Assembly (NCBI RefSeq): GCF_900104845.1
Contig: NZ_FNSR01000001.1
Location: forward strand, 1,116,001 to 1,180,000
DNA: 64,000 nucleotides
Reading direction: 5' to 3'
DNA from: Paraburkholderia caballeronis
GTDB lineage: Bacteria > Pseudomonadota > Gammaproteobacteria > Burkholderiales > Burkholderiaceae
The notes beneath the pieces are model-generated. The model made no database searches and was not told where the DNA came from. It saw only the letters and a list, made by a program, of their open reading frames with translations. Shown one piece after another: positions 10,133 through 33,152 of the stretch; the first letter of the stretch is position 1, and each line of letters opens with the position of its first letter. The position numbers were made by a program, and so were the translations under genes.

Positions 10133-10150
10133 TGGTGCTCGGGCCGGAAT
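10133..10150. repeat. Left attachment site (attL)
   Basis: The sequence TGGTGCTCGGGCCGGAAT repeats the last bases of the tRNA-Leu gene (TGGTGCCTCGGGCCGGAAT at 20684-20702) except for one missing C. The 13 bases CTCGGGCCGGAAT are identical. Homology stops on the right, where element sequence begins. Confidence 0.75.
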
Positions 10151-10207
10151 AAAACTCTTCCGGCAAAGCCTTATGCAATGGAGTTTTTGGCTTTTTTGTG
10201 GTTTCAC

Positions 10208-10227
10208 ATACCCCCGTAGATACCCCC
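10208..10227. repeat. Left integrase arm-type repeats
   Basis: Two copies of ATACCCCC start 12 bases apart. The same octamer, with the same 12-base period but inverted, overlaps the start of int at 20499-20518, and three ATACCCC copies follow at 20550-20578. Paired repeats at both ends of an element and at its integrase gene are the usual form of arm-type binding sites. Confidence 0.55.
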
Positions 10228-10294
10228 ATATGACGATGCGACTTTGGTTCGGTGCCGGACATTGAAACGACAGAGCCGGAAGCTGAAAACGCGT

Positions 10295-10397
10295 GGGAAC
10301 AGCGGGAACAGGTCAGGTAGACGGATGATTTTCAATGATTTTTTTGTTCCCAAGTTGTTCCCAAAACACTCATATATATGGGAACAAATTGGGAACA
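10295..10397. repeat. Iteron cluster 1 (GGGAACA), candidate ori or crr
   Basis: Three pairs of the heptamer GGGAACA/TGTTCCC: 10295 and 10304 (direct), 10345 and 10356 (inverse orientation), 10380 and 10391 (direct), with in-pair spacing of 9-11 bases. A second cluster of the same heptamer lies 8 kb away after the primase gene. In P4 the alpha protein binds repeats at both ori and crr; the similarity here is in arrangement, not in repeat sequence. Confidence 0.55.
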
Positions 10398-10567
10398 ATC
10401 GCCAGCATACGTATAGTTTGGCTGGGGGATCGTTCTGGCCTGATCGCGTTGAGCTACCCGCCTCTGGAACGCTACGCGCAAAAGAATTGCCCGTGCCGCC
10501 GCCCTTCGGGCCGCGAACGAAAACGGGCCTTGCGGCCCGTGCAAAGTGACTTTTGGATGTAGAGGCG

Positions 10568-11143
10568 TCACGCCGTCGCGCGCACGCGCATGATGGTTTG
10601 GCGGCTCGTGCCATATTGACGCGCGAGCGCCGCCACGCTCTTACCGTCCGCCAGCTCACGCAGCACTTCGGTTCGCTGTTGCTCCGAGAGGGCAGTGGGG
10701 CGGCCCATTGCCTTTCCTTCAGCCTTGGCCCGCGCGATGCCCGCATTCGTGCGCTCGATGAGTAGATCGCGTTCGAACTCAGCGACGGCATTTAGAACCT
10801 GCATCGTCATGCGGCCCGCCGCGCTGGTCAGATCGACACCGCCGAGGGCGAGGCAATGAACGCGCACGCCGCGTTCCGCCAGCGCTTCGACCGTCGTGCG
10901 AACGTCCATAGCATTGCGGCCGAGGCGGTCCAGTTTCGTCACGATCAACACGTCGCCTTCCTCCATGCGGTCGAGCAGCTTGGCGAAACCCGGACGTTGT
11001 TCCGCGCTCACGCTCCCGCTGATGCTCTCGGACACGACGCGGCGCTTGTCGACCGCGAAGCCTGCCGCCTCAATCTCGCGGACTTGGTTGGCGGTAGTTT
11101 GGTCGGACGTGCTGACGCGGACATAGGCGAACGTGCGGGACAT
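10568..11143 (-). CDS. Serine recombinase (resolvase/invertase family)
   Basis: 191 residues, the usual size of small serine recombinases. The nucleophilic serine is in [10 protein letters not shown] near the N terminus, followed by the active-site segment [14 protein letters not shown] and the conserved [29 protein letters not shown]-terminal helix-turn-helix ([19 protein letters not shown]) binds DNA. Upstream repeats TGTACGAA may be its res-like site or operator. It could resolve dimers, invert DNA or help excision of the element; there is no inverted-repeat pair flanking a promoter to prove inversion. The start at MSRTFAYV fits the family. Confidence 0.88.
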
Positions 11144-11156
11144 ATCAGCTCCGATG

Positions 11157-11195
11157 TGTACGAAAAGGATGTACGAATTATAGGTAGTGTACGAA
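11157..11195. repeat. TGTACGAA repeats upstream of the serine recombinase
   Basis: Three direct copies of TGTACGAA at 11157, 11170 and 11188, with a degenerate inverted copy (TTCCGTACA) at 11212-11220. They lie 14-52 bases upstream of the recombinase start, where res sites or autoregulatory operators of serine recombinases are found. Confidence 0.5.
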
Positions 11196-11393
11196 ACTGT
11201 GCAACCCTTATTTCCGTACATGTTGATTAAGGTATGTCTAAAAGGGTTCGGTTTCGGACATATCCGACAACCGCCGCCACCCGCGCTCAATCCTGCGAAA
11301 ATATCGACCGTCGAGCCTAGGGCGGCCACCCGAAAACCGGATACCTTCACCGGCTGGCTCGACGCTTCATGAAGGTCCACGTGAAGGGTGGAT

Positions 11394-12443
11394 ATGGCAT
11401 TCAAACTGCGACTTGATCCGCGTCTGCGTGCAGCGGATATTTCGGAGGCTGATACGGCCTCGACGACGGCACCAATTCCCGCCCCGCCAACACTGCATGA
11501 GCTTGTCCGGAGCATGGAGCGCGCGAACGTCAACGCGATCGCTGCCATGCGCAATCAGGCCAGCACGATAGAGCAAGGCAAGAAGCGGACTTTTGGCAAA
11601 TTTCGCGCGCGCTGCGCGCGCTCTGCCATCACCTCAATTTCGGTCGAAGCTCCGGCATGGTTGCGCGAGGCGCGGGAGATAAACCGCGAAGCGCGTGAGA
11701 GACGCGACACCGCGCAGGCTGCTGAAAGGGCTGCCGTGCTGGAGCGCGATCATTTCGACCGGCGATACGTCGATAACCAGCGGATATTTTTCTTTTACCT
11801 CACCACCAAAACGCGACCATTCGAGATAGATGCGCTGGCCGTCGCAGTGGCAGAGAGCGGGCCCGGTAAGTATGACCGTGCGAACCTGTTGGCCGCTGTC
11901 ATGCGTTGCGCTGCCGAGGCCGCAGCGAGCGCAGCACAAGAAGGCGTGGCGCTTACGGCACCCCCGCCCGAAGTCGCCGCTGCCCTGCGAAAGATCCGGC
12001 AGTTCGGTGACGATATCGACGGTGCTATTGAGTACGCGGTAACCGGTCAATGCAGCGTCATGCAGCGCTCATACCGCGTTTTCGCTCTGGTCTACAGTCA
12101 TATGTCCCGCCAGCACGATACGACCTGCCGAAAAATAGCTGCGGCATTGCCGGCACCCTGTCCGCCGTCTACCGAGACAGCGAATTCCGATGCCACCACG
12201 TCGTCGTTGAAAAAAAGGCGTGGCGAAACCGGTAGAGACGCAAACGCGATCAAGGGCAGCAGGACCCGCGCCAAAGTCCACGCCGCCGCCGCCAAAATCA
12301 TCGCAGAGCACGGCACGCTTGCTTCGGCCGATACAGCGATCATCGCCAAGAAAGCCGGCGTGTCACCAAGACACGCGCGACGTGTTCTCGACGGTGCCGG
12401 CGACGAAATCCAGCGCTTGGCTGCGGACATTCAAACCACGTGA
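11394..12443 (+). CDS. Unknown element protein with C-terminal HTH-like segment
   Basis: 349 residues, not recognised. The N-terminal third is Arg/Ala-rich and helical, with a probable coiled coil around residues 85-115 ([29 protein letters not shown]). The middle has [24 protein letters not shown], and the C terminus [25 protein letters not shown] looks like a helix-turn-helix. ATG at 11394 is preceded by GAAGGG five bases away; a GTG two codons earlier is also possible. It is divergent from the recombinase. A DNA-binding regulator or partition/replication accessory is plausible but unproven. Confidence 0.65.
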
Positions 12444-12545
12444 CATTCCACAAACGCGGACATGCTGTTTTGAGATGCCTCGCGGTGCGCTGAAACTTCG
12501 CTCCAACCTATGCCCAAAGTCGGCTTAGGACAGCTAGGAGCGAAT

Positions 12546-12800
12546 ATGACCCCACCGAACCGACGTGCCATGCGCGCCGCCAGAGAATTACCTCTGGACG
12601 GCTTCTCGCGCTGGAGCGATTTGCAGAGATTCATCCCCGTGTCCCGCGAAACGGTGCGCCAGCACGAGCTGGCGGGCCGCTTTCCGCGTCACCAAAAGAT
12701 CACCCAGCGTTGCACGGTCTGGCCGAACAGGGAAATTCACCGATGGCTGGCGGACCCCGTGAACTATCGCGCCAGCGACATCATCGGGGAGGCCGCATGA
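12546..12800 (+). CDS. AlpA-like excisionase/transcriptional regulator
   Basis: 84 residues with a MerR/excisionase-type winged helix: LDGFSRWSDLQRFIPVSRETVRQHELAGRFPRHQKI...VWPNREIHRWLADP. Proteins of this family are small DNA-binding factors of P4-like and related elements that activate integrase or direct excision. TAGGAG lies seven bases before ATG 12546; the frame is open 12 codons upstream but with no ribosome site. The stop overlaps the next start (ATGA), so translation is coupled with the following gene. Confidence 0.8.
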   Translation: MTPPNRRAMRAARELPLDGFSRWSDLQRFIPVSRETVRQHELAGRFPRHQKITQRCTVWPNREIHRWLADPVNYRASDIIGEAA

Positions 12801-13240
12801 TCGAATTCACCTGCAACGAGGGTACGAAACGCGCTCAGCTCGATAACCTCACGCTCGCCTACTCGGGGGCGTATCGCCGTTGCACAGACCCGCACGCCCG
12901 GCGGATGGGTTCGGCACTGCGTTCGGCATCGAGCCAGCTCTGGACCGCTGGCGGCCCGGAAAACGTCGCGGCCAGCGTGCGCGCCGCCCAGCTCGCAATG
13001 CTGGCCGTCCAGCCCGTCAAGCTGTCGTGCGGCACGAACGCGTATCTCCGCGAGGCTCGATCGGACGTGAACGGTGCTATCGGGTACGAGATGGGCGACA
13101 GCGACGAGCTGGCGGAGGATATCCGGCCGCTCGATGAGGTCGCGGAGGTGTTCTGGTATCGCGGCGACGACAAACACGGGCGGGCCGCTATCGCCGTGCT
13201 GTGCATCATCGAGCGCCTGTTAGCGGCGGAGGTGCAGTGA
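12797..13240 (+). CDS. Unknown small element protein (147 aa)
   Basis: No family recognised. The protein is soluble with no signal or membrane segment. Its middle is Ala/Arg-rich, and the C terminus ends with GRAAIAVLCIIERLLAAEVQ. Its ATG overlaps the stop of the AlpA-like gene and GGGGAGG lies a few bases upstream; its own stop overlaps the next start. It therefore belongs to a tightly packed operon. Confidence 0.68.
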   Translation: MIEFTCNEGTKRAQLDNLTLAYSGAYRRCTDPHARRMGSALRSASSQLWTAGGPENVAASVRAAQLAMLAVQPVKLSCGTNAYLREARSDVNGAIGYEMGDSDELAEDIRPLDEVAEVFWYRGDDKHGRAAIAVLCIIERLLAAEVQ

Positions 13241-13527
13241 TGGCCGACCCCATCAAGGAGGCCGCATCGCTGCGCGACGTAGCGAACGCGGACAAGAAAG
13301 CGGCGGATGCCGCGCTCTACGCAGCTCAAATTGCCCGCCAGCGCGAGCGTTACGCCGCCGCGTATAGCCGCTGTTCCGACGGCGCACGACAGGAAGCAGC
13401 GCGCGGCATCTGCGTGGCTGCGGCCGTGTTCGAGAATGACGCGAAGCGGATGCCGACGCGGGCAAAGCGGGCCGTCGAGCTGCTGAAACACGCGGTTTTC
13501 ATGCTCGATCCGAAGGCCCCGGCATGA
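13240..13527 (+). CDS. Unknown small element protein (95 aa)
   Basis: 95 residues starting MADPIKEAASLRDVANADKKAADAALYAAQIARQ, mostly helical and Ala/Arg-rich. The ATG overlaps the preceding stop and is preceded by GGAGGTGCAGTG. The last base triplet again overlaps a possible ATG (13524). Function unknown. Confidence 0.65.
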   Translation: MADPIKEAASLRDVANADKKAADAALYAAQIARQRERYAAAYSRCSDGARQEAARGICVAAAVFENDAKRMPTRAKRAVELLKHAVFMLDPKAPA

Positions 13528-13614
13528 CGCGCGGCCAAAGTCACTTTATCCACGTGCCGGCGTCGCCGGTTCGCGCCGCCAGTCCCTTCGCTGGAACGTT
13601 CCAGACGGGGCTGG

Positions 13615-13643
13615 TTGCGCGAAGCGGCGGCGCACGCTATTCT
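13615..13643 (+). promoter_or_regulatory. Promoter of the candidate antisense RNA
   Basis: TTGCGC (13615-13620) and TATTCT (13638-13643) are separated by exactly 17 bases, predicting transcription from about 13650. An inverted repeat TGGAACGTTCCA lies upstream at 13592-13603 and could be an operator. Confidence 0.5.
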
Positions 13644-13649
13644 GAGATA

Positions 13650-13723
13650 GCCGCTGAGACAACAGCGGCCGGGTTTGGAAGCCCGAAAATGTTGGCGGAC
13701 AACCGCCGCTGTGCGGTTTTTTT
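13650..13723 (+). ncRNA. Candidate C4/CI-like antisense immunity RNA (about 74 nt)
   Basis: The predicted transcript folds into successive hairpins: GCCGCTG/CAGCGGC (13650-13669), CGGG/CCCG with an 8-base loop (13670-13685), then GGCGG/CCGCC (13694-13707), which competes with the terminator AACCGC/GCGGTT followed by seven T (13701-13723). The segment GTTTGGAAGCCCG (13673-13685) is complementary to 13858-13874, just before the Shine-Dalgarno of the next gene, with a 4-base bulge. Phage P1 c4 and P4 CI RNAs work this way, pairing with a downstream leader to cause premature termination. The assignment rests on architecture, not on a database match. Confidence 0.52.
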
Positions 13724-13889
13724 ACGTCCGTACGCCTTCGCGCGCCCTTACGATCAATGGGCGGGCCTTGGTGGGGAGGGCTTCGGCCCTGCCGGTGCCA
13801 ACGTTCCGGCCTTCCAACCTTGCCATGTGCCCGCTCACCCCATTTGGAAGTGGGAAGCGGGCTTTCAACCAAACGTTGGAGGCCGCACC
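13724..13889 (+). promoter_or_regulatory. Structured leader upstream of the small-gene/replication operon
   Basis: Contains AGGGC-TTCG-GCCCT, a CCCGCT...AGCGGG hairpin (13830-13861), and GGCC-T-TCCAAC (13809-13819) complementary to GTTGGA-GGCC (13875-13884), which would sequester the Shine-Dalgarno GGAGG. CCAACGTT (13799-13806) can also pair with AACGTTGG (13872-13879). These alternative pairings, together with the antisense RNA above, suggest control of translation and read-through. Confidence 0.45.
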
Positions 13890-14066
13890 ATGCGCCAACT
13901 CACGCACGCCCATACCGGGCAAAACCCCATCCTCATTCAGTCCGTCATCCGCGACGCCCTGTGCGCCGCAGCAACCGCCGACACGTATCAATCCGCGCTC
14001 GATGCAACCGGCGCGGCGCTCGTCGCTATCTCGGCACTCGTCCGTACGGAGGTGCGCCATGGCTAA
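13890..14066 (+). CDS. Unknown small element protein (58 aa)
   Basis: 58 residues from MRQLTHAHTGQNPILIQSVIRDALCAA; the ATG has GGAGG seven bases upstream. The same frame is open back to an ATG at 13524 (180 residues), but that longer product would read through the antisense RNA and its structured target, where the translation looks unnatural; the short form is preferred. First gene downstream of the putative immunity RNA. Function unknown. Confidence 0.55.
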   Translation: MRQLTHAHTGQNPILIQSVIRDALCAAATADTYQSALDATGAALVAISALVRTEVRHG

Positions 14067-14340
14067 GGCAAAGTCCCTTCGTTGCCGCCCCGGCGATCTG
14101 GCGCGGGTGATCGAGTCGATCTATCCGGCTCTTGTCGGGCGAATCGTGTTCGTCGAGGCATGGGGCGCGCACGACCGCTGGAATGTGACGCTCTTGGGTG
14201 AGCCTTTCTTCGGTTTCGCGCTTGTCACTGGCAGTCCGATCCTCGGTAACAAGACGATGTTCTACGACTCGTCACTGATGCCGCTGCGCGGCGACACGCC
14301 GGACATGTCCACGCAGAAGCCGGAGGCGATCCATGGCTAA
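14059..14340 (+). CDS. Unknown small element protein (93 aa)
   Basis: 93 residues, MAKAKSLRCRPGDLARVIESIYPALVGRIVFVEAWGAHDRWNVTLLGEPFFGF. The N-terminal half resembles short SH3-like beta barrels found in many phage accessory proteins (CRPGDLA...GRIVFVE...WNVTLLG), but I cannot name a family. It starts inside the last codons of the previous gene with GGAGG before the ATG, and its stop overlaps the next start. Confidence 0.68.
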   Translation: MAKAKSLRCRPGDLARVIESIYPALVGRIVFVEAWGAHDRWNVTLLGEPFFGFALVTGSPILGNKTMFYDSSLMPLRGDTPDMSTQKPEAIHG

Positions 14341-14581
14341 TGCTGACACGCAGACATCCATCATCGAAATGATGGAGAAAATCCAGGACGAAATCATGCA
14401 GGTCAATGGCGGCCTCCATGCCCTTAAGTGGGCAGCGTCGCACGCCTTCGACAACATGGAAGCTTTCTGCGAGTTGTCCATCCGGATACTGCAACCCCTC
14501 ATTGACGGGACCAACTGCGCTGCGGTTCGCCTCGATGACCTGTGCGACGCGCTCACGAAAAGCGAGGTCAACCATGACTAG
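14333..14581 (+). CDS. Unknown small element protein (82 aa)
   Basis: 82 residues, acidic and helical (QTSIIEMMEKIQDEIMQVNGGLHALKWAASHAFDNMEAFCELSIRIL). GGAGGCGATCC precedes the ATG, which overlaps the upstream gene by eight bases; the stop overlaps the next gene. No family recognised. Confidence 0.65.
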   Translation: MANADTQTSIIEMMEKIQDEIMQVNGGLHALKWAASHAFDNMEAFCELSIRILQPLIDGTNCAAVRLDDLCDALTKSEVNHD

Positions 14582-14921
14582 CACGACAATCCGCACGGCC
14601 GTCCTCGAAGCTGTCGATAACGCTCCCGCGCTCGATACCGGCGCACCGCTCGAACTGCAATTCGCCGTCAAACTCGGTGCAACCTGTGCCGATGCCTGGC
14701 TGGAACTGAAAGGCACTGTGCGCCTGCACGACTACGCCGCGCATCAGGCGGATGCGTTCTCGCGTGGCCTGTCGGGCGCGATGCACGAAGCGGGCGAATT
14801 CGACTCGCACCGGCTGGCTGTGAGCCGTCAGGCGTTCGCGGCCGGGATGATGGGGCGGGTGCAGCAGCACCTGCTGGCGGCGCTCGGCATGGTCACGCGC
14901 GATGAGCGCGTAACGCATTAA
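14574..14921 (+). CDS. Unknown small element protein (115 aa)
   Basis: 115 residues, MTSTTIRTAVLEAVDNAPALDTGAPLELQFAVKLGATCADAWLELKGTVRLHDYAAHQADAF, soluble, no recognised domain. Start at 14574 overlaps the previous stop by eight bases and has GCGAGG upstream. It lies in the same coupled series that ends in the primase gene. Confidence 0.65.
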   Translation: MTSTTIRTAVLEAVDNAPALDTGAPLELQFAVKLGATCADAWLELKGTVRLHDYAAHQADAFSRGLSGAMHEAGEFDSHRLAVSRQAFAAGMMGRVQQHLLAALGMVTRDERVTH

Positions 14922-14930
14922 GGGGGAGCC

Positions 14931-15206
14931 ATGCAAAACGCTGACATGGTGCCGCTCCGCGAGGAAAAAAACAGCGTGTTGCGTATCAGGTGCAGTGATG
15001 CGCGCGATGTCTATGCGGAGGCGGTATCCCGTGCCGAACTGGCGCGCGGGCTGGCGGATTCGATGTGCTCTATCGACGTGCTCAATGACGATGGCGTGGC
15101 ACTGCTGCACAACGTAACGGCCGCAATCGACGCCCTGATTGGTGACGCGATGGGTCTTTACCGCTGCGCCCACGACATGCAGGCGAAACCGAAGCGCATC
15201 GAGTAG
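14931..15206 (+). CDS. Unknown small element protein (91 aa)
   Basis: 91 residues with a regular Shine-Dalgarno (AAGGGGGAGCC) and a nine-base gap from the preceding gene. Rich in Ala, Asp and Leu, helical, no signal peptide. Last small gene before the replication gene. Function unknown. Confidence 0.65.
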   Translation: MQNADMVPLREEKNSVLRIRCSDARDVYAEAVSRAELARGLADSMCSIDVLNDDGVALLHNVTAAIDALIGDAMGLYRCAHDMQAKPKRIE

Positions 15207-15297
15207 CCGTATCAACAGGGTTGATTAGCCGGGTAGCTGGCGGTGCGGTTTGCACTACTAATCGCATGCCAGTCCGGCCATAACGTGGCAAGGAAAT

Positions 15298-18162
15298 ATG
15301 CCGGATACACCATTGTCAGAATACGAGCGCGCACGGATCGCGCTCGATCATGTTCCGCCGGATGACCGCGAAACGTGGCGTAAGGCCGGGATGGCGCTAA
15401 AGGCCGAATTCGGCGAGGAAGGATTCGCCCTCTGGAACGAGTGGAGTCGCGCCGCCAGCAGCTACAAGGAAAGCGACGCGCGGGACGTCTGGAAGTCGTT
15501 CAAGGGCAGCAGGATAACCATCCGCACGCTGTACCACCTCGCGAAAGCTGGCGGCTTCGATCCGCGAGCGCACAAGGCAAAGTCACTTTCGCCGGCCGAA
15601 CGGCAGAAGCGCGACGACGAACGCAAGGCACGCGAAGCCAGCGAGCGCGAGGCGATGGCGAAGCGTCACGATGAGGCCGCCAGCGAGGCGGAGCGGCTTT
15701 GGCTGGCAGCCGCGCCCGCGCCAGCCGATCATCCATATCTTGTCTGCAAGCGGATCGACGCGGGTGCGCTGCGCATCTATCGCGGCCCGATGCGGATCGG
15801 CACGGCAGCGTGCGACGGTGCGTTACTCGTGCCGGCGTTCGATGCAGCCGGCAAGCTTTGGACGCTGGAATTCATACTGGAGGATGGTCAGAAACGGTAC
15901 CTGCCGAAGGGCCGCAAGTCCGGCGGCTTTACGCTCATTGGCGGTCCGGTCACGGATACCGTGCTGGTTGGCGAGGGTTACGCTACGTGCACCACGCTCG
16001 CGGCCGCCACGGGCCTGCCGGCGGCCGTCGCATTCGACGCGGGCAACCTGCTTGCGGTCGCAACGGCACTGCGTGGGCGGCATCCGGCCGCCCGCATCAT
16101 CCTGTGCGCCGACGACGACCACAAGACAAAGGGCAATCCGGGTGTCACGAACGCCCGCGCGGCCGCCGTGGCGGTTGGCGGCCAGCTCGCGATTCCGCGG
16201 TTCGGCAATGACCGGTCCGACACCGCTAAAGACTTTAATGACCTTGGCGCGCATCTTGGGCTGGATGTGGTAGCCGCGTGCGTGCGCGCTGCGGAGGCCG
16301 TGGGAGGCCCGGAGGCGTCCGGCAAGGGCGGAGCGTCAGCCGCGCCAGCGAAGGCCGCCAGAAAGCCGAAAACGACCCACGCGAGCGACGGCCGGTCGCG
16401 CTTTCGCGTGGATGGGCGTGGTGTCTGGTACGAGGGGTATGACCGCGAAGGTAACAGGCTGCCGCCGCAATGGATCTGCGATCCGCTGGAAATCGGCGCG
16501 GAGACCCGCAACGAAGCCAATACGGAATGGGGCGTGCTGCTTGAATTCGCGGACCGCGACGGTAATCCGAAGCGTTGGGCGATGCCGCGCCGGATGTTGG
16601 CGGGCGACGGTGCGGAGTATCGCGCGATCCTGATGGACATGGGGCTAAACATCGACCCGTCGTCGTCAGCGAAACAGCGGCTCGCGAGCTATATCCAGAA
16701 TGCGCGCAGCGATGGGCGTGCGCGCTGCACAAGCCGCGTCGGCTGGCATGGAAACGCATTCGTTCTGCCGGACCAGACCATCGGCATGGGCGACGATCTG
16801 ACGATTTTCCAGACGGACGGCAGCATCGAAAGTCATTTCCGGCAGAGCGGTACGCTCGATGACTGGAAGCGCGAGCTGGCGGCGCTGTGCGTTGGCAACA
16901 GCCGCGTCATGTTCTGCGTGTCGGCGGCCTTCGCTGGTGCGCTGCTGCGGTTCTCCGGGCAGGGTTCGGGGGGCTTCCATCTCGTCGGTAACAGCACGGT
17001 CGGCAAGACAACGGCGCTGCGGGCCGCCGCCTCGGTGTTCGGCGGCCGCGATTACCTGCGGAGCTGGCGGGCCACGTCGAACGCGATGGAATCGACAGCC
17101 GCGCAGCATAGCGACGGGCTGCTGATTCTCGATGAAATCGGGCAGGTCGAGCCGAAGGAAGTGGGCGATATCGTCTACATGATCGGCAATGAGGCTGGCA
17201 AGGGCCGCGCCACGCGGAACGCGACGGCAAAGCCGGTGCTCACGTGGCGGTTGCTGTTCCTGTCGAGCGGCGAGAAAACGCTGGCGGCGATCATGGGCGA
17301 AGCGAATAAGACCGCGAAGGCCGGGCAGGACGTTCGCCTCGCAACCGTGCCGGCGGATGCGGGGCGCGGATACGGCATGTTCGAAGAGTTGCACGGGTTC
17401 GCGTCTGCGAAAGAGCTGGCGGATCGCCTGACGCATGCCGCCGGCCAGTATCACGGCGTGGCCGGGCTGGAGTTTATCCGGTACGTTTCGGGGTACGCGG
17501 AGGGAATGCCGGATACGGTCAGCCGCATGGTGTCGCAGCTCGTCGGCGAGTGGGTTCCGCAAGATGCGGATGGACAGGTTTCCCGTGTCGCGCAGCGGTT
17601 CGCGCTTGTGGGTGCGGCTGGCGAGATTGCGGGCGCTGCCGGTTGCACGGGATGGGGCGAGGGCTATGCGGTCGAGGCCGCGCGGGCGTGTTTCGATGCC
17701 TGGGTTCGTGAGCGAGGCGGTGTCGGTAACGCCGAATCGACGGCAATCATTCGGCAGGTGCGCGGCTTTCTGGAGGCGCACGGCGACGCGCGTTTCACGT
17801 GGGTCCAGCGTGTCGATGATGACCATGCGGGCAAGACAATGCACCGGGCCGGATTCAAGCGCCCCATGTCGGCCGACAGACCCGTGAATTCGGACCGGGA
17901 ATACATGGCTGAATATGGGGAAAAAATGTCAGCCGCCGATGCCGAACGCAGCGATACAGAATACCTTGTGCTGACGGAGCCGTTCCGCAAGGAAGTCTGC
18001 AACGGATACGACCATCGTGCCGTTGCGCAACTGCTGGCGGATGTTGGCGTGCTGAAGGTTGAAGGCGGCGGCCGTCAGGACTGCAAGGTCCGCATTGGCT
18101 CCCTTGGCTTGATGCGCGCGTACCGTATCCAGTCATCAATCTTTTCTCTCGATATTGATTGA
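15298..18162 (+). CDS. Primase-helicase: PriCT, Toprim-like and DUF927 domains
   Basis: 954-residue replication protein, functional counterpart of P4 alpha. Residues about 8-85 match the PriCT-2 domain (RETWRKAGMALKAEFGEEGFALWNEWSR...WKSFKG). Residues about 140-320 form a Toprim-type primase region with VLVGEGYATCTTLAAATG and ARIILCADDDHKTKGNPG. Residues about 365-680 are a DUF927 ATPase with Walker A GNSTVGKTTA and Walker B GLLILDEIG. The C-terminal part has KEVCNGYDHRAVAQLLADVGVL, probably a winged helix for origin binding. AAGGAAAT precedes the ATG. It should prime and unwind the element from the iteron sites; 15579-15589 inside the gene is one of the AAAGTCACTTT sites. Confidence 0.88.
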   Translation: MPDTPLSEYERARIALDHVPPDDRETWRKAGMALKAEFGEEGFALWNEWSRAASSYKESDARDVWKSFKGSRITIRTLYHLAKAGGFDPRAHKAKSLSPAERQKRDDERKAREASEREAMAKRHDEAASEAERLWLAAAPAPADHPYLVCKRIDAGALRIYRGPMRIGTAACDGALLVPAFDAAGKLWTLEFILEDGQKRYLPKGRKSGGFTLIGGPVTDTVLVGEGYATCTTLAAATGLPAAVAFDAGNLLAVATALRGRHPAARIILCADDDHKTKGNPGVTNARAAAVAVGGQLAIPRFGNDRSDTAKDFNDLGAHLGLDVVAACVRAAEAVGGPEASGKGGASAAPAKAARKPKTTHASDGRSRFRVDGRGVWYEGYDREGNRLPPQWICDPLEIGAETRNEANTEWGVLLEFADRDGNPKRWAMPRRMLAGDGAEYRAILMDMGLNIDPSSSAKQRLASYIQNARSDGRARCTSRVGWHGNAFVLPDQTIGMGDDLTIFQTDGSIESHFRQSGTLDDWKRELAALCVGNSRVMFCVSAAFAGALLRFSGQGSGGFHLVGNSTVGKTTALRAAASVFGGRDYLRSWRATSNAMESTAAQHSDGLLILDEIGQVEPKEVGDIVYMIGNEAGKGRATRNATAKPVLTWRLLFLSSGEKTLAAIMGEANKTAKAGQDVRLATVPADAGRGYGMFEELHGFASAKELADRLTHAAGQYHGVAGLEFIRYVSGYAEGMPDTVSRMVSQLVGEWVPQDADGQVSRVAQRFALVGAAGEIAGAAGCTGWGEGYAVEAARACFDAWVRERGGVGNAESTAIIRQVRGFLEAHGDARFTWVQRVDDDHAGKTMHRAGFKRPMSADRPVNSDREYMAEYGEKMSAADAERSDTEYLVLTEPFRKEVCNGYDHRAVAQLLADVGVLKVEGGGRQDCKVRIGSLGLMRAYRIQSSIFSLDID

Positions 18163-18318
18163 CCGCGCCCGTGCCGTGGCGGCGGCGCGGGCCTTTCATT
18201 TGCGCGTCAATCTGCCGGCGGCCGCGTTCAAAGTCACTTTGGATGAATGCTCCAGCGAGTGATTCAGCGGCTTATCGCTGGTGCTTATCTGTGCGATATT
18301 CGTAACAATTGACTGACC

Positions 18319-18490
18319 TGTTCCCAAACGCCCTTTTCTCGGTGGGTACAGCCGTAATCCTTCTCTAGTAAGGCGTTTGGTTACTTGTTCCCAAATTCCC
18401 TGCCGTCTGTTCCCATCTCTAACGGGAACGCTGGAAGCCTTTCCTGTATTGCTACACAGGCTATTTGAAAGGCATGTTCCCCATGTTCCC
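18319..18490. repeat. Iteron cluster 2 (TGTTCCC)
   Basis: TGTTCCC at 18319, 18386, 18408, 18475 and 18484, plus GGGAAC at 18424. The last two are nine bases apart, the same spacing as a pair in cluster 1. Location directly after the primase gene matches a replication origin. Confidence 0.55.
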
Positions 18491-18654
18491 AGTAAAAAAT
18501 GATATGGAGGGAAGGGAGCAAGGGCATTGCACAGACAGGGTATGCCAATAATGGCGGGCGTTGCGGGCAATTCGGTACAAGAAAACGTGGCTTAAGGCGA
18601 GGCTACGGCAGTCCGGCGTCGGGTGCCGATCATTGCAAATTGAGAAAAGGCGAC

Positions 18655-19002
18655 GCGGGTAATTCGAGCCCCGTTCCGTTTGTACGGACAGCGCGGGCTA
18701 GGGGGTTGTAGCCGCGTGTCGGTCGCTGCCGAGCTGGCGGCCATCAGTAGCGGGGGACCCTGAGAACGACGACGGATGCGGGTAATTCGAGCCCCGTCCT
18801 TTTTGTACTAACCCCGCGAGGGGTGGGGGTTGTAATAGTACGGTGTCGGCATGGCGGACAGGTTGAATCAAGGGGAAACCCTTATGGGGTCGGCCTGCAC
18901 TCACCCGCTGAGCCCGGTTTTTAGGGGTTTTCACCTATGTTCACGCGGGATTGTCGCGGGTCCTCCCGGCGACTTTTCGAGCAGGGGTAATTCGAGCCTC
19001 GT
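18655..19002 (+). repeat. Triplicated GGGTAATTCGAGCC repeat
   Basis: Copies at 18655-18674, 18778-18797 (20 identical bases each, beginning GCGGGTAATTCGAGCC) and 18984-19002 (one T for C). The first two are each followed by a degenerate copy of about 50 more bases with TTTGTAC, GGGGGTTGTA and GTGTCGG in the same order. Function unknown; all are in the same orientation. Confidence 0.6.
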
Positions 19003-19030
19003 TACATGCGCGGTCGCCAGTGTTTTTATG

Positions 19031-19273
19031 GGTAGTCACTTGGGTGGTCATTGGGCGTCCGCCATCCCAATCCCGCGCTCTGGTGCGCTTCCGGCGTCTG
19101 GACGTACTCTGCCATCAAGCCGACCGCGCTCGCCCGCCAGCGGCGCGAAAAGTGCCCGCGCCGCGCCGCTTTCGTACGAAATGGCGCGCTCGCTATTCTG
19201 GGCAGGCCGTTGCCGGGTGACTACCTTGGGTAGTCAGGTGGTCGCTTCGGGTGGTCGGGTAGTCAGGTGGTCA
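19031..19273. repeat. GGTRGTC repeat array next to integrase 3' end
   Basis: Eight copies of GGTAGTC or GGTGGTC: 19031, 19043, inverted at 19217-19225, then 19229, 19237, 19250, 19258 and 19266. The last five fall in 44 bases with 8-13-base spacing, like binding sites for a cooperative protein. Confidence 0.55.
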
Positions 19274-19283
19274 CGTGTGCGGG

Positions 19284-20498
19284 TTATCGCGCGGCCGTCA
19301 GTGGAATCACCTTGGCCCCGGCCTTAAGGCGGTCGAGATAGTCCGCCCATATCTGCATCATCGCCCGTCTGTCCTTGATAAACCGCGTGCGGTTGTATGC
19401 TCCGCCAAGCGCGTCTGGAACGGCGTGCGCGAGCTGGTGCTCAATGACCTCCGGCTTTTGCTCCAGTTCCTCATGCAGGATCGTGCGCGCCATCGCCCGG
19501 AATCCGTGCCCGGTAATTTCCGTGCGCGTATCGTATCCGAGGCGGCGCAGGGCGGCATTGATTGCCGCCTCGCTCATTGGTCGCTTACGGTCGCGCGCAC
19601 CGGGAAACACGTATTGCCCGTTCCCAGTGAGCTCGTGCAGCTCGCGCAGGATCGCGACGGCTTGTCGTGCCAGCGGCACGAGGTGAGGTGTATCCGTCTT
19701 TGTGACGAGGTAACGCCACTCGCCCCTGTCCAGATCTATCTCTGACCACTCGGCCTGCCGCAGCTCACCGGGCCGCACGAACAGCATCGGCGCGAGCCGG
19801 AGCGCACATAGCACCGGAAACGTACCGCTGAAGCCGTCGAAAGCCCGCAGCATTTCTCCCACCTTGATGGGCTCCGTTATCGACGCGAAATGCTTCGTCT
19901 GGGACGGCGGGATTGCGCCTATCAGGTCGGCGGCCGGGTCGTGACGGCAGAAGCCGTGCTTGATGCCGAATCGGAAAACGCGACTGATTTCACCACGCAA
20001 CCGATGGGCTGTGAACCGTGCGCCCCGGCTATCCACGCGCTTGAGCACGTCCAGAATCTCCGGCGCGTCGATCTCGGAAATAGGTCGCTTGCCGAGCCAG
20101 GGGAGCGCATCGTTTTTGAAGCGTGCCAGCGTCTTTTCGTACTGCGCGGGCTCCACGTAGGACTGGCGTTCCTCCATCCATCCGTTAGCGACGGCCTCAA
20201 ATGAATTGGCGGCGGCGATCCGTGCCGCACGTGCATCGGCTTTCTTGGCTTCGCCCGGATCAATGCCGGCCGCCAGCTTCTCGCGGGCTTCCTCGCGGCG
20301 CTTGCGTGCCGCAGCCAGTGACACTTCGGGATAGACGCCGAGCGCCAGCAGCTTCTCTTTTCCGGCGAAGCGGTATTTGAGCCGCCAGTAACGCTGTCCG
20401 GCGACCGTCAGCAGCAGGAACAGGCCGCCAGCGTCAAAGAGCTTGCGCGGCTTGTCTGCGGGCTTGGCGTTCCTGATTGCAGTGTCTGTGAGGGGCAT
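19284..20498 (-). CDS. P4-type tyrosine integrase
   Basis: 404-residue site-specific recombinase that inserts the element at tRNA-Leu. The N-terminal DUF4102 domain (LTDTAIRNAKPADKPRKLFDAGGLFLLLT) is typical of P4 integrases. Catalytic residues are visible: Arg in FVRPGELRQAEW, HGFRAMART (His-x-x-Arg), HQLAH, and the Tyr in GGAYNRTRF. It points away from the tRNA with its start 186 bases from it, the normal position. Two GGGGGTAT arm repeats overlap its start codon, so the protein probably represses its own gene. Confidence 0.93.
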   Translation of the reverse strand: MPLTDTAIRNAKPADKPRKLFDAGGLFLLLTVAGQRYWRLKYRFAGKEKLLALGVYPEVSLAAARKRREEAREKLAAGIDPGEAKKADARAARIAAANSFEAVANGWMEERQSYVEPAQYEKTLARFKNDALPWLGKRPISEIDAPEILDVLKRVDSRGARFTAHRLRGEISRVFRFGIKHGFCRHDPAADLIGAIPPSQTKHFASITEPIKVGEMLRAFDGFSGTFPVLCALRLAPMLFVRPGELRQAEWSEIDLDRGEWRYLVTKTDTPHLVPLARQAVAILRELHELTGNGQYVFPGARDRKRPMSEAAINAALRRLGYDTRTEITGHGFRAMARTILHEELEQKPEVIEHQLAHAVPDALGGAYNRTRFIKDRRAMMQIWADYLDRLKAGAKVIPLTAAR

Positions 20499-20578
20499 GG
20501 GGGTATCCGTGGGGGTATTTTTTAGTCGCGGTAGCAGCGCTCGCCGGAGATACCCCTAAAAATACCCCCTAATACCCC
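20499..20578. repeat. Right integrase arm-type repeats
   Basis: GGGGGTAT at 20499 and 20511 and ATACCCC at 20550, 20562 and 20572, spaced 10-12 bases. They cover the int start and its upstream region and mirror the pair at 10208-10227. Confidence 0.55.
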
Positions 20579-20615
20579 TCGCTGTCACTGGTGAAACCTA
20601 GTGAACCCTAGAAAC

Positions 20616-20650
20616 AAAAAACCCCGCTCAGGCTTATCTGGCGGGGTTTT
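20616..20650 (-). terminator. Element-borne terminator after tRNA-Leu
   Basis: Minus-strand stem AAAACCCCGC / GCGGGGTTTT with a T run, 34 bases beyond the tRNA 3' end. It is inside the element and replaces the displaced chromosomal terminator at 10065-10099, which it resembles in stem, loop content (AGGCTTAT versus AAGCCTTGT region) and distance. Confidence 0.8.
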
Positions 20651-20683
20651 CTGGCGAAACTTGTGCAACGTTTGATAACCTAA

Positions 20684-20768
20684 TGGTGCCTCGGGCCGGA
20701 ATCGAACCGGCACTCCTTTCGGAACCGGATTTTGAGTCCGGCGCGTCTACCAATTTCACCACCGAGGC
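20684..20768 (-). tRNA. tRNA-Leu(CAA), also the right attachment site
   Basis: 85 bases with encoded CCA. Acceptor stem GCCTCGG (20768-20762) pairs with CCGAGGC (20694-20688). The anticodon loop CTCAAAA gives anticodon CAA, reading UUG. The long variable arm and GGTTCGATTCC T-loop are typical of leucine tRNA. Promoter-like TTGCTC (20823-20818) and TAAAAC (20801-20796), 16 apart, lie upstream. The 3' bases to 20702 match attL, so integration left a complete tRNA gene. Confidence 0.95.
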
Positions 20769-32562: not shown

Positions 32563-32783
32563 CAGGACCGGATTGAGGCCGCGCGAAGCGGCAAACGGGG
32601 GACGCCGCGGACCGCGGAATCGGCGGGCCGCATGCGCAAACGATTGTCGATTTTACCTGTGTTGGCTGGCACACGCTGGCGACCACTATGCACACCGGCT
32701 GGAAACGCGCATGGCGCGCGGGTTTGATCGGACTGAACACTGTTCATAATTACAATTAGTTATGACTTTGCTTTGTTATAGTG

Positions 32784-32811
32784 TTGACGATCTATAAAAC
32801 CCTGATAGAAT
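32784..32811 (+). promoter_or_regulatory. Plus-strand sigma-70-like promoter
   Basis: TTGACG (32784-32789) and TAGAAT (32806-32811) with a 16-base spacer; expected start near 32818. It lies about 335 bases upstream of the transglycosylase start. Confidence 0.55.
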
Positions 32812-32817
32812 CCGTCC

Positions 32818-32955
32818 ACACTGGTTGCAGGGCTTGAAATTTTTAACCATTGTCCCGGTCCTTCAGACGCAACGCGTCGCCGTTTTGCCGATTTCCTGCA
32901 CGGCCTAGTACGGTCTAGTTTTGCTGTCCTCGCCAGCGCCCCTGCGCTGGTTTTT
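32818..32955 (+). ncRNA. Candidate small RNA or attenuated leader (about 138 nt)
   Basis: Bounded by the promoter above and by the terminator CCAGCGC-CCCT-GCGCTGG-TTTTT at 32933-32955. There is no mini-ORF with an obvious ribosome site. It may be an independent small RNA or the attenuated leader of the transglycosylase gene. I do not recognise the sequence. Confidence 0.4.
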
Positions 32956-33152
32956 CCGCGCGAGAGTCTCGGCGCGTGCCCCTTGGCATGCTGACTTTCT
33001 GTCCCGAGAGACTCCGCGCACGGCGTATTTGCCGTATTCCCGACGTCGCTGCTGCTTAAGCCAGGGCGCGAGGCGTCGTGATCCCGCGAAAGGCTGCCGG
33101 CTTCATTGTCAGGCTGCCGCTCCACGGATCATGCAACATGGGAGATCTGTAG

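Follow-up and report, generated by a model that had tools for sequence, protein, structure and literature searches.

The window analysed here, a stretch of 64,000 nucleotides from Paraburkholderia caballeronis, contains a proposed island of approximately 10.6 kb, the putative ends of which are marked by a pair of short repeats of the 3′ end of a tRNA-Leu gene; this repeat, TGGTGC(C)TCGGGCCGGAAT, is present at 10133-10150 and again at 20684-20702, with one base of length difference between the two copies. The features of the island, as assigned by Pfam and Rfam searches and from the sequence, are as follows:

10133-20702: proposed island bounded by the tRNA-Leu repeat pair
10568-11176, minus strand: serine resolvase near the left end of the island (Pfam)
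11310-11375, plus strand: int-alpA RNA (RF02996, 63.3 bits, cut-off 35.8)
12546-12797: AlpA-like gene, a weak match (Pfam, 19.9 bits, cut-off 21)
13615-13889, plus strand: the RNA module considered in this study
13890-14066, plus strand: first gene of the operon, encoding 58 amino acids
14333-14578 and 14574-14918: the next small genes
15298-18162, plus strand: primase/helicase-like protein with PriCT_2, Toprim_3 and DUF927 matches (Pfam), downstream of the module and on the same strand
18652-19003: direct repeats
19284-20498, minus strand: tyrosine integrase (Pfam)
20684-20768: tRNA-Leu gene

Itself excluded, the 58-amino-acid gene has 27 homologs (E ≤ 1e-3), and every organism name given by the source was that of a Burkholderiaceae genus, many rows being nameless; a Pfam search assigned its product to no family, and the products of the two small genes that follow it likewise gave no Pfam match. 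Among eight related loci of 14-16 kb, five (L102, L103, L105, L106 and L108) carry a relative of the primase together with one of the integrase, with integrases 31-43% identical to that of the window, and L104, L107 and L109 gave a match to neither. The serine resolvase has relatives in L102 (33%), L108 (82%) and L109 (70%). The int-alpA RNA is located upstream of a gene for 351 amino acids, which gave no Pfam match, and of the AlpA-like gene. Between the primase and the integrase genes, the region 18652-19003 contains three copies of the 19-base unit GGGTAATTCGAGCCCCGTT together with a 44-base direct-repeat pair at 82%, and may represent an origin or an array resembling attachment sites. The Burkholderia small RNAs BcKCsr7 and Bp1_738 (Rfam) flank the island at 2466-2616 and 32750-32957, both on the minus strand.

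As read from the sequence, the plus strand between 13615 and 13889 holds in succession a promoter, a leader RNA of 74 nucleotides, a second structured RNA and the leader of the 58-amino-acid gene, all transcript ends being predicted. A blastn search with 13630-13900 gave matches in 100 of 299 Burkholderiaceae genomes, these being an even draw from a larger group, and a search with 13400-14400 gave 20 matches in plasmid records (17 from Burkholderia and 3 from Paraburkholderia) and none in phage records at E 1e-5. The window, 29 other genome loci from blastn and 10 of the 20 plasmid loci were aligned with MAFFT, and one locus (L065) was omitted as its contig ends within the module, thereby giving a set of 39 modules selected by similarity to the window (alignment A3); a second, stricter set consisted of 14 representatives less than 75% identical. 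The elements of the module, all on the plus strand, are given below with the percentage of alignment cells that are paired and the number of base pairs with two-sided change; segments X and Y are named a′ and b′ in the analysis scripts.

13615-13643, plus strand: sigma-70-type promoter TTGCGC-17-TATTCT, conserved in the aligned modules (-35 at 13615-13620, -10 at 13638-13643)
13650-13723, plus strand: IsrK or seqA-like leader RNA (Rfam RF01394), a C4 target, with a predicted intrinsic terminator at its end
13650-13669, plus strand: IsrK hairpin 1 (95.6% of cells paired; two-sided change in 7 of 7 pairs)
13670-13685, plus strand: IsrK hairpin 2, presenting Y1 in and around its loop (98.7%; 2 of 4 pairs)
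13675-13681, plus strand: Y1, partner of C4 segment Y
13688-13697, plus strand: X1, partner of C4 loop X, overlapping the 5′ arm of the antiterminator
13694-13707, plus strand: proposed antiterminator hairpin GGCGG-ACAA-CCGCC
13702-13723, plus strand: predicted intrinsic terminator of IsrK, its 5′ arm common to the antiterminator (82.4%; 4 of 5 pairs)
13753-13842, plus strand: C4 antisense RNA (Rfam RF01695, 60.6 bits, E 3e-9; fold z -2.83)
13796-13805, plus strand: C4 segment X, a hairpin loop (swap and ungapped-helix tests)
13811-13817, plus strand: C4 segment Y, a junction strand (pair counts with Y1 and Y2; word complementarity)
13829-13862, plus strand: leader hairpin GCCCGC/GCGGGC, presenting Y2 in its loop (two helices, 89.7% and 94.7%)
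13844-13850, plus strand: Y2, target in the leader
13872-13879, plus strand: X2, target overlapping the Shine-Dalgarno sequence
13878-13882, plus strand: Shine-Dalgarno sequence GGAGG, with the ATG 7 bases downstream

Both RNAs of the module scored above the curated Rfam cut-offs, 13650-13723 as isrK (RF01394; 60.8 bits, cut-off 50) and 13753-13842 as C4 antisense RNA (RF01695; 60.6 bits, cut-off 45), which excludes the 74-base transcript as the antisense RNA. The original prediction, made from the sequence, had assigned the locus to the class of C4/CI-type antisense switches, in which two short segments pair and a target adjoins the Shine-Dalgarno sequence of the first gene, and this assignment is borne out by Rfam and by comparative pairing. 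It had also taken the RNA at 13650-13723 to be the antisense molecule, which was incorrect, as this RNA is the IsrK, or seqA-like, target and C4 is the next element; the Rfam C4 covariance-model search that it had suggested found a C4 RNA above the cut-off, at 13753-13842 and not at the 74-base RNA. The case corrects an easy error, in which a target RNA is mistaken for an antisense RNA. The individual elements that the prediction described were found in the sequence. The promoter is present as described and is conserved among relatives (TTG of the -35 element in 35 and TAnnnT of the -10 element in all 39 of the aligned modules), hairpins 1 and 2 are present and mostly paired across the 39 modules, and the mutually exclusive hairpin and terminator proposed for 13694-13723 correspond to an antiterminator (13694-13698/13703-13707), the 3′ arm of which is shared with a terminator (13702-13706/13713-13717) followed by a T run to 13723. 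In addition, at a looser threshold 13637-13689 matched RF03163, c4-a1b1, described as the a1 and b1 targets of C4 antisense RNA, with 44.6 bits, just under the cut-off of 46.7, and works like a C4 target of this kind though it scores below that cut-off. The two segments complementary to a ribosome-binding-site target that are expected of RF01695 are found as X and Y, with X2 and Y2 as their targets, on the evidence of covariation and swap tests, and the same-strand order of the P4 type, in which seqA, the antisense RNA and seqC precede a replication operon, is found as IsrK, C4 and the targets at 13844-13879, followed by the primase gene at 15298-18162.

Of 299 Burkholderiaceae genomes, at least 135 contained C4, 130 of them with a score above the cut-off, and of 399 Burkholderiales genomes at least 55 contained IsrK, 12 of them above the cut-off; both counts are lower bounds, as no more than 14 C4 and 11 IsrK candidates were scored per genome, and the genomes were drawn from a larger group. 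C4 was located directly downstream and on the same strand in all 20 scanned IsrK loci, these being the best-scoring 20 of 29 fetched besides that of the window, and IsrK was located upstream (E ≤ 0.001) in 13 of 20 scanned C4 loci of the 30 fetched. Owing to this adjacency, IsrK in the scanned loci is more aptly regarded as the leader of a C4 module than as an independent small RNA. Modules of the IsrK-C4 type were also observed on Burkholderia and Paraburkholderia plasmids (L092-L101), and in nine of these ten loci a protein of approximately 300-400 amino acids is annotated just downstream of the module; a Pfam search of ten plasmid-module proteins, eight of them encoded by the large gene after the module, gave no match. 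One locus (L044:1501-2437) carries three same-strand C4 RNAs in less than 1 kb, with IsrK directly upstream (E ≤ 0.001) of the first only, and L041 and L047 contain sub-threshold symR-like matches near C4 (50.2 and 52.1 bits; cut-off 61). Several genomes of genus g176 have 14 or more C4 matches.

The pairing of C4 with IsrK and with the leader of the first gene was assessed by swap tests across the 39 modules. C4 and its own IsrK gave a mean of -33.9 kcal/mol as compared to -23.4 kcal/mol for swapped partners (z -17.0), and C4 and its own leader gave -34.6 as compared to -26.5 kcal/mol (z -15.2), with none of 5000 permutations as good in either case. In the 14 representatives less than 75% identical the corresponding z values were -8.0 and -6.9, and the other arm of C4, used as a control in this set, gave no pairing signal. 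The own partner was the single best in 24 of the 39 modules for IsrK and in 19 of the 39 for the leader; for the C4 of the window its own IsrK ranks first, and three foreign leaders pair better than its own. Within the window alone, dinucleotide shuffles matched the pairing of C4 with IsrK in 9 of 1000 cases and that with the leader in 97 of 1000, and since GC-rich shuffles often pair as well, complementarity within a single window was rejected as the sole test. The predicted pairing of C4 with the leader is by itself unexceptional in the window, and its support is comparative.

At the level of individual segments, Y is paired with Y1 in 97.1% of cells and with Y2 in 273 of 273, with two-sided change in six of seven pairs each. 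Over the whole of the C4-IsrK and C4-leader interactions, the percentage paired, the number of cells with two-sided change and the covariation score each exceeded those of all 500 shuffles, and the number of pairs with two-sided change exceeded 496 and 489 of the 500, respectively; the count of further pair types was not above that of the shuffles (31 versus 30.9 for IsrK and 23 versus 29.5 for the leader). Pairing of X with X1 and X2 amounts to 62.3% and 59.7% of cells on alignment A3, where X is misaligned because its loop length varies. Compared as ungapped helices in swap tests, X and X1 gave a z of 19.0 and X and X2 a z of 20.4, each with none of 5000 permutations as good, and the control combination of X1 and X2 gave 2.3 (78 of 5000). 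Y occurs as seven words in the 39 modules, and Y2 is its exact complement in all 39, Y1 in 33 as aligned; X occurs in 30 forms, and X and Y together in 32 combinations. Co-evolution shows the predicted pairing of C4 both with IsrK and with the leader.

A different helix had been put forward in the original prediction, in which 13673-13685 of the 74-base RNA pairs with 13858-13874 of the leader. The complementarity is indeed exact, with 13 Watson-Crick pairs and a 4-base bulge, and in the window alone it is weakly better than chance, as dinucleotide shuffles of IsrK pair equally well with the leader in 48 of 1000 cases and those of hairpin 2 in 22 of 1000; its maintenance in relatives was not observed, as no co-evolution was found. 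In the 39 modules IsrK and its own leader gave -20.4 as compared to -21.2 for swapped partners, with 4769 of 5000 permutations as good, the 14 divergent representatives gave a z of +1.3 (4578 of 5000 as good), and the 13-base-pair helix was paired in 66.7% of cells, the mean of the shuffles being 67.2%. Pairing of IsrK with 13858-13874 was consequently rejected, own partners being no better than swapped ones and the cells being paired as in shuffles. The reading in which the 74-base RNA would itself be the antisense repressor, pairing with 13858-13874 and thereby blocking the first gene, can draw on the perfect helix in the window, on the presence of a promoter and terminator of its own, and on the finding that over the 39 modules the helix exceeds versions slid by 1-3 columns (66.7% versus 32.0-46.3%), a control that tends to favour a structure taken from one row. 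Against this stand the lack of co-evolution in the swap test, the cell counts and the divergent representatives, and the covarying leader hairpin, which accounts for 13857-13862, and we regard such a role as highly improbable. These bases appear to be better explained as the arm of the leader hairpin that pairs with 13829-13834, a segment that is also the 3′ end of C4; this hairpin shows two-sided change in 4 of 10 pairs over the 39 modules, as exemplified on alignment A3 by GCCCGC/GCGGGC and GCCTGC/GCAGGC.

With a probability of roughly 0.9, we take the whole region to be an antisense module of the C4/CI type, by which a small integrated island controls its replication operon. The leader would be made from a single promoter (13615-13643); a polymerase stopping at 13723 would leave the IsrK/seqA RNA, and read-through beyond this point would produce a transcript carrying C4 (13753-13842) and then the first gene. 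Once made, C4 is predicted to bind two places on further transcripts by means of its loop X and strand Y. On IsrK it would, as co-evolution indicates, cover Y1 and X1, and X1 extends into the 5′ arm of the antiterminator; with this arm covered the terminator may form and transcription may stop, as folding suggests for some members of the family. Binding to the leader would likewise, judging by co-evolution, cover Y2 and X2, and as X2 overlaps the Shine-Dalgarno sequence, translation of the 58-amino-acid gene would presumably be blocked. The leader can also hide the GGAGG by itself, as originally proposed, with a predicted pairing probability of 1.00 in the window and of at least 0.5 in 23 of the 39 modules.

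The terminator step was evaluated by comparative analysis and by folding. For the IsrK hairpins and the terminator taken together, 92.4% of cells in the 39 modules are paired, and 13 of 16 pairs show two-sided change. The antiterminator on alignment A3 is paired in 79.3% of cells, with two-sided change in only one of five pairs; in the alignment as it stands two pairs are disrupted in 13 of the 39 rows, the GCGC type of antiterminator not being aligned with the GGCGG type on A3. A script search found a terminator-like hairpin in 38 of the 39 modules (L091 being without one) and an overlapping antiterminator-like hairpin in 36, counts that include wrong terminator picks in L073, L075, L076 and L080 and wrong antiterminator picks in L073 and L075. 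When the C4-bound bases were held single-stranded, the window showed a rise in the pairing probability of the 3′ arm of the terminator from 0.14 to 0.80, and the mean terminator-arm pairing of the 39 modules rose from 0.55 to 0.91; blocking hairpin 1 in place of the C4-bound bases, as a control, gave a terminator-arm probability of 0.54. An increase of at least 0.2 was obtained in 21 of the 39 modules, among them the window and, barely reaching this value with 0.20, L084. For the remaining 18, the terminator already stands at 0.82-0.99 without C4, and the static folding model gives the attenuator no support there; the GCGC type accounts for eleven of these (L064, L072 and nine of the ten plasmid modules) and the GGCGG type for seven (L069, L071, L078, L081, L085, L086 and L088). 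We infer an attenuator step, for which roughly half of the family, including the window, gives support.

Rho-dependent termination is a mode of action of C4/CI in P1 and P4, and C4 might here act only on translation or through Rho-dependent termination, with the overlapping IsrK antiterminator being incidental. Such a restricted action would be in keeping with the overlap of X2 and the Shine-Dalgarno sequence, with the 18 of 39 modules in which C4 shifts the predicted terminator by less than 0.2, and with the single antiterminator pair of five that shows two-sided change on A3; we nevertheless find it somewhat doubtful, as an antiterminator overlapping the terminator recurs despite a change of letters from GGCGG/CCGCC to GCGC/GCGC, and as X1 abuts the 5′ arm of the antiterminator in the alignment. 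It may also be that terminated IsrK titrates free C4 as a decoy. Given the strong complementarity of the two RNAs, terminated IsrK would be expected to be capable of binding free C4, and short IsrK of Salmonella is reported to bind its own read-through mRNA and to raise its translation (PMC4825925). There is, however, no sign in the sequence here of an amount of IsrK above that of C4, and a co-expression result in Salmonella is at odds with simple titration (PMC4825925), so that titration appears an unlikely explanation; binding of C4 by IsrK is compatible with the C4/CI-type antisense module as a feedback layer. With regard to that module, we also advance, tentatively and at less than even odds, that the IsrK/seqA RNAs of this clade are terminators under RNA control: by invading the antiterminator, the loop of C4 would force termination, C4 being an attenuator effector as well as a translational repressor; terminated IsrK, carrying the same two words, would act as a decoy that caps C4; and the words would represent an immunity-group barcode common to chromosomal islands and plasmids. 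The antiterminator offers a concrete mechanism for how an antisense RNA might stop transcription.

The arrangement is of the known P4 CI-seqA-seqC and P1 c4 type, as is evident from the literature on P4, P1 and IsrK-C4, and is here situated before a primase operon in a tRNA-Leu island. The first gene and the island genes presumably differ from those of P4. The sources state that the Rfam C4 and isrK families detect relatives of P4 CI and seqA (PMC10111431), that P4 SeqA is a structural homolog of IsrK and that CI pairs with the flanking seqA and seqC (PMC4825925). As in P4 (PMC10111431, PMC4825925), the order of seqA, antisense RNA and seqC occurs within one leader, the antisense RNA would derive from read-through, the matching segments are short and replication genes would be controlled. 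The likeness to P1/P7 c4 lies in the C4 fold and in two pairing segments, one of them over the ribosome-binding site (PMC5320573 and, for heteroimmunity, PMC12197685); in P1 c4 the segment occluding this site is named b′ (PMC5320573), and X of the present module would therefore correspond to P1 b′. PMC5320573 further describes P1/P7 c4 as processed to an RNA of approximately 77 nucleotides by RNase P. Unlike P1/P7 c4, which controls the antirepressor ant, the module studied here precedes a 58-amino-acid orphan gene and a downstream operon encoding a primase, and no antirepressor gene was recognised among the island genes searched with Pfam. In the Salmonella Gifsy-1 IsrK-orf45-anrP locus, IsrK similarly has an intrinsic terminator and a stable read-through RNA is complementary to it, whereas the reported role of IsrK there is activation in trans, with anrP/antQ as the output (PMC4825925). 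Its authors raise the possibility that the IsrK terminator is acted on by a C4-like RNA, which might in turn be inactivated by IsrK, one co-expression result not fitting; the string 'attenuat' is absent from PMC4825925. The c4 and c4-a1b1 motifs are listed in PMC2864571, and adjacent isrK and C4 on one strand of Xylella appear in a table in PMC12189769. What is new here is the Burkholderiaceae-island member, the demonstration of co-evolution and the proposed antiterminator, each as a refinement; the antiterminator of IsrK was not found in the literature searched, a body of text outside which the subscription papers on P4 and P1 largely fall, and its novelty is accordingly unproven.

On the model of P1 and P4, a resident island would silence itself and any incoming island that carries the same X and Y words, and immunity of this kind, in which the resident copy silences the incoming one, is an analogy drawn from those two systems. 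Word sharing was evaluated in 107 C4 modules from 32 genomes, hand-picked from genomes with at least two matches among those listed. Among these matches, none of 187 within-genome pairs of C4 shared both words, as compared to a permuted mean of 2.3, and 187 of 2000 permutations were as low. In genus g176 none of 163 within-genome pairs among the matches listed shared X and Y (permuted mean 5.0; 8 of 2000 as low), and in the other genera none of 24 did so (permuted mean 0.03). Y alone was shared by 15 within-genome pairs of the 107 modules among the matches listed, and X by none. An exclusion of shared words would thus be in the expected direction in g176, weak over the whole set and empty elsewhere, and it could also come from vertical inheritance of islands at fixed sites. 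The comparative data make the two-word code readable, in that sequence alone predicts which elements should silence which, and with C4 found in at least 135 of 299 genomes this RNA logic looks like a common route by which the mobile elements of the Burkholderiaceae control themselves.
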